A DNA stretch of 64,000 nucleotides from Sipunculus nudus (lineage: Eukaryota > Annelida > Sipuncula > Golfingiida > Sipunculidae), in assembly GCA_026874595.1 (NCBI GenBank), contig CM049311.1, positions 68,427,453 to 68,491,452 on the forward strand. Reading direction: 5' to 3'. The position numbers and the translations under genes are program-made. The notes beneath the pieces are model-generated. The model searched no databases. It was not told the DNA's origin and saw only the letters and a program-made list of their open reading frames with translations. Within the stretch, counting starts at the first letter, position 1; each line of letters opens with the position of its first letter. Positions 55,702-63,583 of this stretch are shown one piece after another.

Positions 55702-56106
55702 CTAGGGCTGTAGTTCTTTAGCTTATCATAACCTACTCACCTAGATAGAGGTGTAGTTCTGAAGGCTTAACATAAACTGCACACCCATACAGGGCTGTAG
55801 TTCTTTAGCTTAACATAACCTACTCACCTAGACAGGGCTGTAGTTCTGTAGCTTAAAATAACCTGCTCACCCAAACAGGGCTGTAGTTCTGTAGCTGAAC
55901 TTAACCTACTCACCAAGACAGGGCTATATTTCTGAAGGCTTAACATAAACTGCTCACCCAGACAGGACTATAGTTCTGTAGATTAAGATAACCTGTCCAA
56001 CTAGGCAGGGTTTTTGTTCTCTAGGTAAACAGAACCTGCTCATCTATACACGTCTGTAGTTCTGTAGGTAAATATAACCTCACCTAGACAAGGTTTTAGT
56101 TCTGGT
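55702..56106 (+). repeat. Minisatellite, about 44-base units, about 9 copies
   Basis: Tandem imperfect units of the form GGGCTGTAGTTCTGTAGCTT + AACATAACCTGCTCACCTAGACA. Copies toward the right are more diverged. It lies 280 bases upstream of the YqaJ-gene ATG and on the far side of CCP-a, so it may lie just outside, or be the left sub-terminal part of, the two-gene transposon. Confidence 0.85.
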
Positions 56107-56383
56107 GTCAATGTTCAGCCCACACGCATGATCGTATGCTGTATATCTCCGCTTGACAGTTGGTATCCATGCCGACACGCGAAAGTTGCTAGGGAACCCT
56201 CATCAGCAGCGGTATAGGAGCAATCACTGTTATTGTTTACATACCCTAACTCCCACGCATGCGCACTGGCTGGGAGACAAAAGCCGACCCTGCCCAGCAG
56301 TGGTCAGTGCTTTGTGTATGGCTGGGCCAGCTTTGATTGCTGTGTATACACTCTGTATTTTCCCCCTGTTTGCATAAGTTAAT

Positions 56384-56982
56384 ATGACTACAGGTTCACA
56401 AGACTATGTGGACACTTTAGATAAGGCATCAAGAGAGAGGTATTTATCCAAATTACACATAAGTGATGGATCAGTAGCTTTGCCTGATCCGTACAGACTT
56501 GAAGAGGGCTGGTGTGATGATGTTAAAGCATGGCCGGCCACAAACAATGGCCACATTTACCAGTACCTTATTGACCAGCCAAATCCTTTTACCAATGAGC
56601 CAAACAAGGCATACAAGTCCTTGGAGGGGTATAATTACTTCAGTTCAGGAAATGTTCAGGCTGTTTTGTACAAGAGTATTGAAGAAACAAGCCCTGTATG
56701 CTTCCTCAAGACAAAGGTCATACCATCACAAAGTGTGAATGAGAAGCCTCATGAACCATGGGTTTGTTTGGACAAGCGCCAGGGCTACGTAGTTGCTGCT
56801 CACTGTACATGCATGGCTGGGTAAGTCATTACCTAAAACATCTAATTAATTCAGTGTTCCATGATACTTTTGATTTTTATTAAAATTTGTAAATCACAGT
56901 AATTGCATTTATTAATAAGGCTACAATAACAAGCCTCTAAATAGAACATGCTTAAAAGGCTAAAACAACCATATATATATAT

Positions 56983-57031
<49 letters not shown>

Positions 57032-58855
57032 TTAGATATCATTATATGTAATAAATATTATTGAATAATTTTAATATGATGTTTTTTATAATTAAGATAT
57101 AATTTTTATGCTTTTAAAATTAATTGGAAATGTATAAATTACTGATAAGACAGAAAGTGAACTATTAAACATCATTAATATTTTTCATACAAAGGCAATG
57201 ACTTATTTGTTTGGTTCAATCTACAGGTTGGGAGAAGCATGTAGTCATATTGCAGCACTTCTATTCAAAATAGAGGCAGCTGTCTCACTTGGACTTAACA
57301 AAGAGTCGTGTACCGGCAAACTTGCAGTGTGGAATCAATTCTATAGATCTAAGGTGTTTTTTTATTAATATTTCCATTTTCAATGTGTAAAACATTTATG
57401 TCCAGTCGTTAAATAATTTGATTGTCTTTATTTATTTATTGTCTATTTATTCTTAAATTTAGGTTTTCCATTATATCCTGCAAAAAGTGTTCTAAACACT
57501 TGAATTGTTATGCTCTTTATGATATTAATTGTATTTTACAACTAACATAGGGATGTGACTATAACAGAAGTTCCCTTCTGTCGGCTGTTTCCTTAATAAT
57601 GTTATAATAAATAAATAAATGTTAAAATAAATAACACGGCTAAAATAATTTTTTACAGGTTCAGCCAGCATCTATCAAAGATATTGATTTCTCACATCCT
57701 AGGAAAGGTAAACGACAGAGAACAACTAAACATCATGTGCCTGAAGTCCAACCTCTCTCAGCTTCGGAGCAGGAGAAAGCACTTGCTGACTTAAGGAAAA
57801 TACTTCCAAATGCTGCTGTGCTGACAAAGGGTGATTCTGACACAGACTCAGCATCTGAGGATGAAGACAGCGACATGCCACAGCCACTTGGACAGTTATT
57901 TGATCCTAGTCTTCGTTCCAGGAATAATGACCTGATTCAGCTGGAAGTAAACAGAGTGTTTAAGACTTATCAAGTGTCACCTCAGCAAGCTGAAAACCTG
58001 GAGGAGAGAACACGGGGCCAGGTAGAGAGTCCTCTCTGGCATGCGCACCGGGTAGGTCGCATCACTGCAACCATGGCTCATTCTGTTAATTCATTACGGG
58101 GAGATTCAACACCCGACAGTGTTCTACGCAATATTATGAAGTACAGGGACTCTGACCTGAGAAATGTAGCTGCTTGTAAATGGGGGATTGAGCATGAGAA
58201 GGAGGCTAGAGAGGCATACAGCAAAGAGCAGTCCATTTCCCATAAATATTTCACTTATCAGCCAGTGGGTTTAGTGGTGTCACCTGGCAATCAATTCACA
58301 GGTGCGTCTCCTGATGGCTTGCGAAAATGTGATTGTCATGGCAAGGGCGTATTAGAAATAAAATGTCCGTTCAAATATAGGCATTTGACCCCTGATCATG
58401 AAATTGCTTTGTATGACTCAAGCTACTGTTTGGACAGGAACGGGCAACTCAAAACATCACATCGTTATTTCACACAGGTGCAGCATCAGATGATGGTATG
58501 TTATGTACAGTTCTGTGATTTTGTGGTTTGGACACCACATGGCGTTAAGATTCAGGTAATTGAGAGAAACAATGGATTTTGTGAATCACTCAATAACAAA
58601 ATGACAGAGTTCATAAAAAAATGTTTAATTGAGGAATTGCTGTTAAAAAGGTTAGAAAGTACAGATTATTCAGAAACTGTCGTAAGTCCACAACCAGGGG
58701 TACCTATCTGTGTATGTAAAAGGCCAACCTTTGGCAGAGTTCTCTGTTGTGGGAATACAGAATGCAACGTTCAGTGGTATCACTATACTTGTGTTGGTAT
58801 TAAAAGAAAGCCAAGAGGTTCTTGGTACTGTGCTGAGTGCAAAGAATCTAAATAA
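56384..58855 (+). CDS. Transposon-encoded SWIM - YqaJ nuclease - PHD finger protein (ISL2EU-type accessory protein)
   Basis: Three exons, 56384-56820, 57227-57353 and 57659-58855, join in frame (GT/AG) to 586 residues. The ATG follows an in-frame TAA nine bases upstream. A SWIM zinc finger straddles the first junction: C141-T-C143 then C151-S-H153. An acidic Asp/Ser/Glu stretch lies near 247-260. A YqaJ-type viral recombinase/lambda-exonuclease domain runs about 312-485: W-H-A-H-R-VGRITAT, WGIEHEKEA, GASPDG (D407) and LEIKCP (E421, K423), the D-ExK metal site of this nuclease fold. A PHD finger closes the protein (about 539-584): C-x-C, CC, C, WYH, C, then SWYCAEC. The stop codon lies within an AATAAA (58851-58856). 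Proteins of this layout are carried by ISL2EU-type eukaryotic DNA transposons beside a THAP/DDE transposase, which is exactly what lies convergently at 58903-61054. All key residues are present and there is no frameshift, so this gene looks potentially active. Its role in transposition is not established. Confidence 0.92.
56969..57026. repeat. (TA)n microsatellite inside the YqaJ-gene intron
   Basis: TA run in the first intron (56821-57226) of the transposon's YqaJ gene. Confidence 0.9.
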
Positions 58856-58902
58856 AAACTGATCATCTATATAGTTTATTCTATCAGCTCTTGATAACAA
58901 AA

Positions 58903-61054
58903 TTACTTTACAAGTTTTGGTTGTAGATTTGAGAGTGCACTACAGATAATGACAATATCATCTGCATATTTGATGAGAGAAACAGGTAAATTATTTGATA
59001 ATATTCTGAAGTTCTTAATACGTTCAAATGCCCTTTCAACATGAATGCGCACAGCTGACAAATGCCGAGCCTCAGTGACTGTCTTTCCTGAAAGCTGTTT
59101 GCGGCCACGGGTAAAGGCTGGTATTGCAAGGGTTGCTCCTTTCACAGCCAAGTCATCTGCAATAAGGAAGCCTCTGTCTGCCATTACCATGTCTCCAAAC
59201 TGAATGTTATCAAAAAATCCAGAGCGAATTGTAAGTTCCTTGTCAGAAACACGACCTCCCCAACATGTTGATATAAATGACACGCTTCCGTAAGGTGTTA
59301 TGCCAAGCAAAACTTTCATGGTGTTGTGATGTTTATAGTTGCTCCATGTTTGGGCTCTTGCAGTCAAATTGAATGGTCGCTCAATAAAAAATTCAGAACA
59401 GTCAATGATTACACAGCATTTTCTATATGTAGGTTTAAAGCATTTAGGCATATTGCGCTTTAGTTCTTCTGTAGATGGCCATCGTATCAAAAATTTGAGC
59501 TTGCCTGCCATTTTAGGAATTGCATCCATTACAACCTTTGACACGGTACTCCTAGACACATTGAACCTGTAGGCTAAATCTTGATGGGTAAGACCAAGTC
59601 TCAGTTTCATCAATGTAATCAACAGTTGATCTGGCTTGCAAATGCACTGGAATGGTTTCAAACAATCACACACAAGGTTAACTAGCCAGATGAACACAGC
59701 AAAGGATGGAAGTCCTGTAAAAAATTGAACTTTGGCATCATCAAGTGCAGTGTGTGAGACAGTTGCTTTCTGTAGCTGCTCTTTTTGGTCCTGCTTCTCT
59801 TTTTGAAGTGCCTGTAGTTACGTCAGGAGCTGCTGGTTCTCTCTCTTTAAGCGTAGGTTTTCTTGTAGGACAGGATCCACATCAGTGTTGATGCCTGAAA
59901 AAATATGTGTATATAACACCATATAGTATATTCAATTGTGGTTACTTTGATTTCATTGACAAGTAGATGAGTAGTTGAAATTTATATATAATTGTACTTT
60001 GTTTAAATATTTTAACTTTTATAAAAAAAAATGTCACCTTCCCAGTAAATCTTCTTAGTAGTGTATACTTATAGGTAATATTTGTGACACAAATCACTAG
60101 TGTGAAATTACCAGTTGGTGGAGCTGTGTTTCAGCTCGGCTCAGTATAATATATCAGAGTGTAAATTTATACCTTTATCTTCTATCTTAGGTGCAGAAGC
60201 TGACAATTCTAGCAATGCTTCAGCTCCAAGTACTGCAGATTGTCTCTCTAGCTCAGCCTTTTGTTTCTTTCTGTACTCTATGTCATCTTTCTCAAGGTTT
60301 CTCTTCTTCGCTCTGGCATGGCGAGCCATTTTGTCTGGGGTGGAAGCGGCCAAAGGTTGGGAAAGAAATACAAACTTTGTTGGGTAGTAATCAACATGAC
60401 AGGGGTCATCACTGGGTTTACCTGAAAATAAATGTAAAATATGATATTTTTTATTTTAGTATTATTTTAGCACTTGTTTATTATATACATGTATGAACCT
60501 GTAACAAAGTTGTGTATTCAGTACCAGCAGAGTACAGTGTACATATGTTATTAAAAACATCAAGATGTTATTACTCTGGCATCCATGTTTACAATGGTTT
60601 ACTCAACTTCAATAAAATAATAACCACTGTATATGTTTGTACTGTTTGAATATTTTTCAAAGTAAAATGTTCACACAATCAAACTAAATTTCTTTCAGAT
60701 TTATCTGTCTGCACTACTGCCTGTCTAGAATGGATCTGTTTGTTTTCTAAGGTCATTACTTGTCAGTTGTCAATATGATGCAGCTGTTGGTCATACCAAC
60801 CAATGATAATTAAGTGTCTGGCACTGATGCCCTAATTTACACAGATAATATACAAAGTAGACAAGCCTTGAAATACCTGTAACAAAGTGATCACTGCAGA
60901 CCCTCTCATGTCCAGCTGGGGTGAAATCAGCACGCTTGATAGCTCTGATCCAGGCATCCCTTTGTTTGGCCTCAGCGGGAATCCCGTAGAAGCTAATTCC
61001 TGACCCCTTCTTTTGTCTGTTAGTACACCCAATGGCCACACAGCTTGTGGGCAT
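58903..61054 (-). CDS. THAP - DDE_Tnp_4 transposase (ISL2EU/HARBI1-like), one in-frame stop
   Basis: Three minus-strand exons join in frame: 61054-60877, 60421-60173 and 59894-58903, 472 residues plus stop. Residues 1-80 are a THAP zinc-finger DNA-binding domain (C5, C10, then C53-S-D-H56, and the following GKPSDDPCHVDYYPTKF). Residues about 88-190 are charged and coiled-coil-like (RAKKRNLEKDDIEYRKKQKA). A helix-turn-helix (HTH_Tnp_4 type: LTHQDLAYRFNVSRSTVSKV) precedes the DDE core, with D307 in IIDCSEFF, D382 in VMADRGF and E429 in HVERAFERIK. These are the hallmarks of DDE_Tnp_4 cut-and-paste transposases of the Harbinger/ISL2EU group. A TAA at 59818-59820 interrupts the coiled coil at residue 168, between QQLLT and LQALQKEK; reading is otherwise open. 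The copy therefore cannot make a full-length transposase unless the stop is an allele or sequence error. The stop is 47 bases from that of the convergent YqaJ gene. AATAAA for this gene reads as tttatt at 58875-58880. Confidence 0.9.
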
Positions 61055-61593
61055 TCTTAATGTTTAGTTAAATACTATACAATTGGAAATTTACCATAAA
61101 ACATGAAATAACAAAGATAAACGCGCAAGCAATGAGGGCTAGGACACAGTGTAACACTATACAGCAAAGGTGGCAGGCTGGGTCAGCAGGACATAGTTTT
61201 GCCTACCAGCCCCGCAGCTGTCAGCAGGCAGTGGGGGCTGTGACGTCACTGTGGAAGCTCCTATATGCCACCTGTGTTGTCAAGAAGGGGTAGTGGGGGA
61301 CATCTGTTTTCTGGGGATCAAAATACGTCTGCTTTATCAGGGTAGAGTACAAAATATAGTAAAATGTTTCAGCTTCAGCCATCTAAGCACTTTACTACTC
61401 GATGAGAACGCTTCCTGAGAATTTCCTCAAATACACTGTGCACACGAGCTTTTGACCATGTTTACTTTCTTATAGGCAGGAAGTTACATTGCTACTTTCA
61501 AGTACAAGTTATTTCAGTAAAATGATCAACGCGAACAGTTCAAGAATCTAAACTTTTTACACAAGAAGCAGCGTCACAACCATCCGAGAAAAT

Positions 61594-63583
61594 CAGGGGC
61601 GGATCCAGGATTTAGGAAAAGGAGGGGTCCAACCCAGGAGGACTAATGACAGTACTTAAACAAGTACAAAGTGACCCATGATTCAAGACGCTCAGCTGTT
61701 ATAATTATTAATGTTATTATCGGATGAAAAATATTTTATAAAAAATATAATCTTATTTAAGGTTTCCAGGAATTTCCCTGGGTAATCCCTAGATGCTAAG
61801 TAACATATTATTTAAGGTTTCTAAGAAGATTTTCCTTGGAACTCCCTAGATGCTATGTAAGACATTTGTTTACAATGTGTGCCCTGTCTGACAGTTTGGT
61901 TGCTCAAAATCCTTTTATTTGGCCAGTAGCTCACAGGATAGAGGTGCCCATGACCTAATTTCACATTTCTAAGGATATTTGGACAAGGCTTTCCTACATA
62001 TTATGTTAAAATTTTCTAGGGCTAATGGACACAATATGTGTCCTCTCTGACTGATTGGGTGCTCAAAATCATGTTTTTAGCCAGTCGCTCGCAAGTATAG
62101 GTCATCATGATATAGTTTCAGGTTTCCAAGGAGATTTGCCTATGACCTACCTGGATGTACAGTAAGAAATTTCTAGGTCTACCGATTATCATTTGTGCCC
62201 TGTTAACGCCCGAACTGCTTCATTTGAAGGTCTGAAAAAGAGATACGAAAATGGGTAAAAAAATTGAAAAAGTTAAGGTGGTACCTCCACCCTAAAGGAA
62301 CTGATGAAACTGTAGGTGTTGCATACGCTTGGGAAGAATCATGACAATCGATTCATTAGTTATAAAGATACCGGAGTTTTTGGTATCAATTTTTTAATTA
62401 TTCTTAAATTATTATAATTCTAAACAGGCCCCATGACTCAAAGAATATATCTCCCAGTGACATAATTTCATGTGTCCAAGGAGATTAAACAAGGTCTCTT
62501 AGATGTAAAATTAGAAGATTCAAGGTCAAATTTTTATGATTTTTGCCTTGTTAATTGACACAGCTATAAATGGTACAAAAATAGAAAAAAATTTGCAGGT
62601 GGCGCCACTACTCTTCGAAAGTAATAAAACTAGTCTAGATCAATAAACATATTGGGTTTGAGGAGACCAGATGAACCCACAGATAAGAAAATGACACCTT
62701 GCTGTTATTTGGCTGTCTTAAAATAAAGGGAGAAAATGGATGAAAAATAAAAAAAAAGTCAGGTGGCGCCACCTATCTTTCGGGAACAGATATTACTAGT
62801 CATGATCAATAAACGTATTAAGTTTCAGGACATAAGAATATCCGACAGATTGAGAAACTGACACCTTGCTGTGTCTAAAAGTCTAAAAATACAGGAAAAA
62901 TGTATTTAAAAATAAAAAAAAATATAGGTGGCGCCTCCGGAAATTGATAAAAACCAGTCATAATCAATAAATATTTCAGGACAGTAGGTGAAACCACAGA
63001 TGAGACACTGATACCTTGCTTTAATTTGGCAGTCTTATAATATAGGGAGAAAAATGCATGAACAATCGAAAACAATACAGTTTGAGCCACCAATCTTCGG
63101 GAAGTGATGCAACTAGTCATGATCAATATTCAAGCCAAAATTGACAACAAAGACATTAGTTATTGAGATACAGGAGATTTTGTATCAAATTTATAATTAT
63201 TCTGGGGTGCCGAAACATGCCCCATAACTCGGATAATATAGGCCGCAGTGACCTTATTGTAGGTTTACAATGAGAATTTATAAGGACCTACCTGGATATA
63301 AAATAAGAAGCTCCTATAGCTAACGGTTACGATTTGTACCCTGTTAACGGACAGACGGTACCGATAGACGGACGGGCGGCGGACAAAGAGTGATTGATAT
63401 AACTCGGATGACTTTCAGTCAGCAGAGCTAAAAAGGTCCCTGGGTCCGAAAAAGGAGAGGGGGGGGGGGGGGGGGGGGGTCTCGGCCGCCAAAAATGGCC
63501 TGAAACCCTTTAAAAAGTTTGCGGCAGCTGGAAAGGGGTGGGGGGGGGGGGAGAGATCCGGTTCCTCCCCTTATCCACTTCTG
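61594..63583. mobile_element. CAGGGGCGGA-type hAT-like element with a family R repeat inside
   Basis: The left end is CAGGGGCGGATCCAGGATTT and the right end GGTTCCTCCCCTTATCCACT followed by TCTG, imperfect inverted repeats as in the copy at 15322-18784. Most of its length (about 61668-63434) is an inserted family R repeat: the host sequence breaks at TTAAACAAG (about 61664) and resumes at GGTCCCTGG (63435), and these match the uninterrupted stretch at 18630-18650. Long G runs at about 63460-63478 and 63538-63551 border the right part. No coding capacity. Confidence 0.6.
61668..63434 (+). repeat. Family R repeat copy with tandem sub-units
   Basis: Begins near GTGACCCATG as in the LINE insertion and ends at an AACTCGGATGACTTTCAGTC hairpin (63401-63429) plus AAAA. 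Internally it repeats the phrases 'cctaatttcaggtttccaag', 'cctacctggatgtacag' and 'gtgccctgttaac', and three closely spaced copies of the AGGTGGCGCC motif (about 62597, 62761 and 62927), about 165 bases apart. Confidence 0.65.

Follow-up and report, generated by a model that had tools for sequence, protein, structure and literature searches.

What does a lambda-exonuclease-type protein do in an animal DNA transposon? The question is raised by a 64,000-nucleotide stretch of the Sipunculus nudus genome (contig CM049311.1, positions 68,427,453 to 68,491,452 of the forward strand; hereafter the window), in which a YqaJ nuclease gene and a THAP/DDE transposase gene face each other. What the YqaJ partner of ISL2EU transposons does is acknowledged as an open question in the available part of PMC4482050. 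The reading that we favour, with some reserve, is that the window holds a decayed, formerly autonomous cut-and-paste transposon of the ISL2EU group (PHIS superfamily), whose lambda-exonuclease-type partner acts on the DNA ends that transposition makes.

A convergent nuclease and transposase pair

The YqaJ gene occupies 56384-58855 of the forward strand in three exons (56384..56820, encoding the N-terminal part and the first half of a SWIM-like motif; 57227..57353; and 57659..58855, including the stop codon) and encodes 586 amino acids without internal stops. The transposase gene runs convergently on the reverse strand from 61054 to 58903, also in three exons, with 472 codons. Its first exon (60877..61054) encodes a THAP domain (Pfam PF05485, E 6.2e-13), the second spans 60173..60421, and the third (58903..59894) encodes a coiled-coil-like stretch, the helix-turn-helix (HTH) domain HTH_Tnp_4 (59494..59643; PF13613, E 1.4e-17) and the DDE_Tnp_4 catalytic domain (58927..59406; PF13359, E 3.6e-47). 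All three domains score over their Pfam cut-offs, the YqaJ profile matches the spliced nuclease protein with an E value of 1.7e-19, and all four introns of the two genes are of the GT-AG type. The initial annotation had proposed this convergent two-gene architecture from the letters of the DNA, and the introns and Pfam matches bear it out; the DDE triad that it named (D307, D382 and E429) lies at exactly those positions. It had also called the copy nearly intact, which is true of the element and untrue of the transposase: an in-frame TAA at codon 168 (59819..59821, reverse strand) breaks the gene, and the window copy is not an active autonomous element.

SWIM, YqaJ and PHD modules had been read in the nuclease gene. 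YqaJ is confirmed by Pfam, and PHD by matches to ING structures in the PDB with a Pfam score under the cut-off, while SWIM stands as a motif only. The SWIM-like assignment comes from the pattern C-x-C...C-x-H (CTCMAGLGEACSH; 56804..57248, forward strand, interrupted by intron 1), which relatives share; the Pfam SWIM profile has no match in the YqaJ protein at E up to 1. We further note that the motif is split by an intron at about the same site (after C-x-C-x-A-G) in the families of the window copy (WIN), L011, L019 and L024, where L-numbers denote YqaJ loci elsewhere in the genome, and that it lies within one frame in L010, L014, L015, L016 and L018. A SAP-like stretch in L026 is under the Pfam cut-off.

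Published ISL2EU elements, as far as the available text goes, have a THAP, HTH and DDE transposase, a YqaJ second gene, an AT duplication and an average length of about 4.8 kb, and are found in animals only (PMC4482050). The window element is alike in its transposase domains, its YqaJ second gene, the AT at both ends and its size of about 5 kb, which supports the ISL2EU-type classification first given to it. The THAP domains, the spliceosomal introns and ISL2EU itself suggest an animal genome. It differs in three respects from the same text: ISL2EU termini usually begin with GG and this copy with AG, a difference that the word "usually" makes non-excluding; the ISL2EU target is AATT and the site here is TATA; and the partner ends in an ING-like PHD finger and has a SWIM-like motif as well, neither of which that text mentions. 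The two-gene plan is thus already published and the element is an ordinary member of its class; the additions made here are the PHD finger and the co-inheritance data.

Co-inheritance of the two genes

The nuclease gene is not a single-copy host gene that the element happens to adjoin. Across the searched genome (1.43 Gb, 153 contigs), YqaJ matches with an E value of 0.001 or less number at least 130, a lower bound from 150 scored candidates out of 171. We examined 42 of these places, comprising 32 of the 33 top-scoring matches (C6:23081462 was omitted) and ten lower-scoring ones picked by hand, each without a stop within the match. Many of the 42 are copies of one family and hence non-independent, and at 18 of them the downstream DNA read was 2.2-2.6 kb only. 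With DDE profiles built from the domains of the window element and its relatives, a transposase match was found downstream on the convergent strand at 37 of the 42 places (29 of 32 in the first set, 8 of 10 in the further one), five of these 37 being a remnant of 33 residues only; in L012 a 0.4-kb transposase piece is inverted. No DDE match was found at the remaining five of the 42 (L017, L020, L034, L042 and L048), and, judged from L011, the transposase of L020 would sit outside the fetched stretch. Within the 64-kb window the DDE profile has no matches besides the window element.

The histories of the two genes are also alike. Pairwise YqaJ and DDE distances were compared over 12 families that have both domains (the family labelled F35 is represented by two of its loci, L026 for YqaJ and L035 for DDE). 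The Mantel correlation is 0.81, a value reached by none of 20,000 permutations (maximum 0.71). Maximum-likelihood trees of both domains share the groups L014-L016-L018, L010-L023, and L019 with L009, L015, L010 and L023. The transposase is the less variable of the two, with 82% identity between L010 and L023 (109 residues) vs 53% for its partner (395 residues). The linked pattern of trees and distances, together with the convergent pairing, therefore shows that the two genes are passed on jointly. The census, the convergent transposase at 37 of 42 places and the similar trees likewise leave hardly any room for a chance neighbourhood, in which a host YqaJ gene would merely stand beside a transposase; we reject the host-gene or chance-neighbour reading for the family.

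One natural exception to the constant pairing is a derivative of about 2.66 kb, present as five copies (L025, L026, L029, L030 and L031) that have clear inverted ends, are 99.6-99.9% identical to L026, and encode the YqaJ protein with only the last ~33 transposase codons. Whether both genes always travel together had been raised initially as a point to check; it is nearly true, with this five-copy derivative as the exception. The two-gene relative L040 shares these ends. Identity is 98.9% to one side and 97.5% to the other side of a deletion of some 1.2 kb, and the derivative therefore arose by internal deletion; presumably it moves by a transposase supplied from elsewhere. The YqaJ domain is uninterrupted in four of the five copies and broken in L031, but because the copies are young an open frame is no proof of selection by itself.

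Conservation of the nuclease active site

The YqaJ/lambda-exonuclease domain (58037..58498, forward strand; PF09588) retains its predicted catalytic residues. In an alignment of 15 YqaJ proteins from the 12 families (three rows are near-duplicates; numbering follows the spliced window protein), E368, D407, E421 and K423 are among 14 invariant columns, and a profile alignment places D407, E421 and K423 on D119, E129 and K131 of lambda exonuclease. A structure model of exon 3 (mean predicted local distance difference test score, pLDDT, 75.6; block means over the nuclease domain a good 64-96) has as its top PDB matches the lambda and LHK exonucleases, with ING PHD fingers among the lower-ranked ones. 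These exonucleases resemble the YqaJ domain in fold and catalytic residues and differ from the whole protein in that their solved chains, of about 200-230 residues, have no room for SWIM or PHD modules. Between L010 and L023 the YqaJ genes show a nonsynonymous divergence (dN) of 0.37 and a synonymous divergence (dS) of 2.2, which is saturated, giving a ratio of about 0.17. The nuclease is maintained in the element families, and its co-inheritance with the transposase and invariant active site suggest that the predicted nuclease activity is needed.

The same residues bear on a different and less probable role, in which the partner works mainly like the Myb-like protein of Harbinger elements, binding the transposase and the termini and bringing the transposase into the nucleus, with the nuclease fold as a DNA-binding scaffold. 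This role would suit the SWIM-like and PHD modules, both of them of a binding kind. Related Harbinger elements need both genes, their second protein importing the transposase and binding the termini, and the likeness extends to a related DDE transposase and to published congruent trees of the two genes (PMC9179366, available part). The second protein of PIF/Harbinger is, in the same account, Myb/SANT-like and not a nuclease, and the target duplications are 3-bp TWA (PMC9179366). Catalytic residues that are invariant in all 15 aligned proteins would be superfluous in a pure scaffold, and the window transposase has a THAP domain of its own.

Extent and termini of the element

The range 56384-61054 first assigned to the transposon is that of its coding region; the whole element probably spans 56216..61262 (5,047 bp). 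AGGAGC begins at 56216 and, inverted, ends at 61262, and AT adjoins both ends (56214..56215, in the context T-AT, and 61263..61264), forming a putative target site duplication of the kind published for ISL2EU. The right terminal inverted repeat (61237..61262, reverse strand) reads AGGAGCTTCCACAGTGACGTCACAGC, and the left one (56216..56235, forward strand) is degenerate and without the TGACGTCAC block, so that the left boundary is the less sure. The right end, AGGAGCTTCCACAGTGACGTCACAG, is similar to the termini of L015 (AGAGGGTTCCCAC-TGACGTCACAGG), L010 and L023, where the inverted repeats are clear and 35-71 bp long, and it is this resemblance to relatives that supports the ends, the shared 9-mer being weak alone. 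The distances from terminus to coding sequence, 168 and 208 bp, compare with about 125-200 bp to the nearest coding match in L010, L012, L015, L019 and L023. The first bases of the termini are AG in the window copy and AC, AG or TC in relatives.

AT lies immediately outside 22 of 22 ends, counted in the window copy and in L010, L012, L015, L023, L025, L026, L029, L030, L031 and L040. In the six copies of the L025/L040 type all 12 ends are flanked by AAT, matching the expectation for an AATT target; the flank is TAT in the window copy, L010 and L012, and L015 and L023 have one TAT and one AAT each. In L019, L021 and L022, 5 of 6 ends have the AT displaced outward by one base. The flanking AT may be the target duplication, and the AAT flanks of the L025/L040 type fit the target published for ISL2EU, A/AT/T, in the available text of PMC4482050. 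In several families (L010, L015, L023, L019 and the window right end) an ACGTCA-containing block begins some 15-17 bp inward from the terminus; it is perhaps a site read by the THAP domain or the HTH.

At the DNA level no near copy of the window element was found among the 20 loci compared, and matches within the element (67-78% over 107-246 bp) occur in three of them.

Proposed role of the nuclease partner

In the mechanism that we favour, the transposase would use its THAP domain and its HTH to bind the termini, and the DDE site to excise the element and insert it at an AT target. The partner, a predicted nuclease, may be tethered by its SWIM-like zinc module and, on chromatin, by its C-terminal PHD finger. 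Its most likely role would be resection of the 5' strand at the donor break or at a transposition intermediate, which could let recombination restore or finish the site. The initial annotation had likewise thought of end processing or donor-site repair, and either appears plausible. A parallel is found in KolobokE, a DNA transposon carrying a lambda-exonuclease-like PD-(D/E)xK nuclease (PMC9587614, available part), which by analogy suggests that such an enzyme can be useful to a cut-and-paste element. KolobokE differs in belonging to another transposase superfamily with TTAA duplications, and in having its nuclease downstream of the transposase domain rather than in a separate convergent gene (PMC9587614).

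Several points weigh against this reading. Spy is the sister group of ISL2EU, and its native transposases are reported active (PMC11304231, available part); most Spy elements consist of a transposase gene only (PMC9179366, available part). PHIS chemistry as such can therefore do without a nuclease of this kind. Spy is characterized by a single gene and no target duplication, and the window element departs from it in having two genes. The function of the second genes in ISL2EU is stated as unknown in PMC4482050, as far as its available text goes. THAP went undetected in the two-gene elements L040 and L014, unlike most other families. The YqaJ and DDE trees, similar as they are, disagree on where the L040 family (F35) and L011/L024 belong, the forks concerned being weakly supported. 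The 9-bp terminal match is weak alone, since a common 9-mer of some kind occurs in 50% of 300 simulated pairs of flanks (in 2.3%, one that begins TAT or AAT). Finally, no empty site was observed; AT being self-complementary, duplication and terminus are indistinguishable at these ends.

The genome offers 12 diverged two-domain families, young multi-copy families (L019/L021/L022, and L040 with its derivatives) and a nuclease-only derivative, and the role of the partner is therefore testable.

The PHD finger and chromatin

The C-terminal PHD finger of the YqaJ protein (58709..58840, forward strand) is of the ING type. It scores 17.3-18.8 bits in Pfam, below the cut-off of 24, and in sequence searches of the PDB it matches chains of ING PHD fingers with E values as low as 2.7e-15; the PHD of L011 clears the Pfam cut-off (34.6 bits vs 24). 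The structure model also matches ING PHD structures, but because its pLDDT over this region is only 48-65 the assignment rests on sequence. The finger is present in six of the 12 families (those of the window copy, L010, L015, L019, L011 and L024) and not detected in those of L014, L016, L018, L009, L023 and L026/L040, even with E up to 10. Weak matches occur in L042 and L050, both outside the 12 families. In L020 about 3.2 kb (L020:1371-4601) separates the YqaJ domain from the PHD finger, an interval not present in its near twin L011.

At the histone-binding positions, where ING residues hold H3K4me3, the PHD of L019 has Y, M, W and D. In the window PHD these are I, V, W and G, and because I, V and G replace the Y, M and D of L019, histone binding by the window finger itself is doubtful. 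A tentative proposal for the PHD-bearing ISL2EU partners, to which we attach a low probability, is that they are chromatin-reading resection nucleases in which the ING-type finger anchors the exonuclease domain to H3K4me3 nucleosomes next to the transposase. If so, excision and repair would be coupled to open chromatin, in parallel to RAG2 and with a nuclease attached. The ING-like finger makes a concrete binding prediction.

We consider it unlikely that the partner is chiefly a regulator that recognizes H3K4me3 through its PHD and steers or limits transposition according to chromatin state, as the RAG2 PHD does for RAG1/2. The ING type of the finger, and the four residues kept in the L019 family if their presumed roles are right, would suit a regulator. 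A precedent exists in RAG2, whose PHD restrains transposition (PMC11844651, available part), and Ginger1 transposases are a precedent for PHD fingers in DNA transposons (PMC2836005, available part). RAG1/RAG2 and Ginger1 resemble the window partner in having a PHD in a recombinase or transposon and differ in belonging to other superfamilies, with no YqaJ gene mentioned in the available parts of these papers (PMC11844651, PMC2836005). A regulatory role would leave the invariant nuclease site unexplained, the PHD is detected in only half of the 12 families, and the window finger departs from L019 at three of the four positions. In the limited open-access literature, outside which the Repbase reports lie, we found neither an ISL2EU description mentioning an ING-like PHD finger nor a link between YqaJ and a SWIM domain.

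Flanking repeats

A tandem array at 55704-56104, with a unit of 43 bp that can alternatively be read as 87 or 173 bp, was considered as part of the element and rejected: it stops about 110 bp short of the left terminus, and the terminus distances of relatives agree with its exclusion. To the right of the element is a dispersed repeat (61871-62592), with copies 67-87% alike and further matches in the window at about 4.6-6.2, 14.4 and 34.1-35.0 kb, and in L015:1579-1880. A tandem repeat at 62577-62935 is made of about two units of 166 bp that contain GGTGGCGCCACC.

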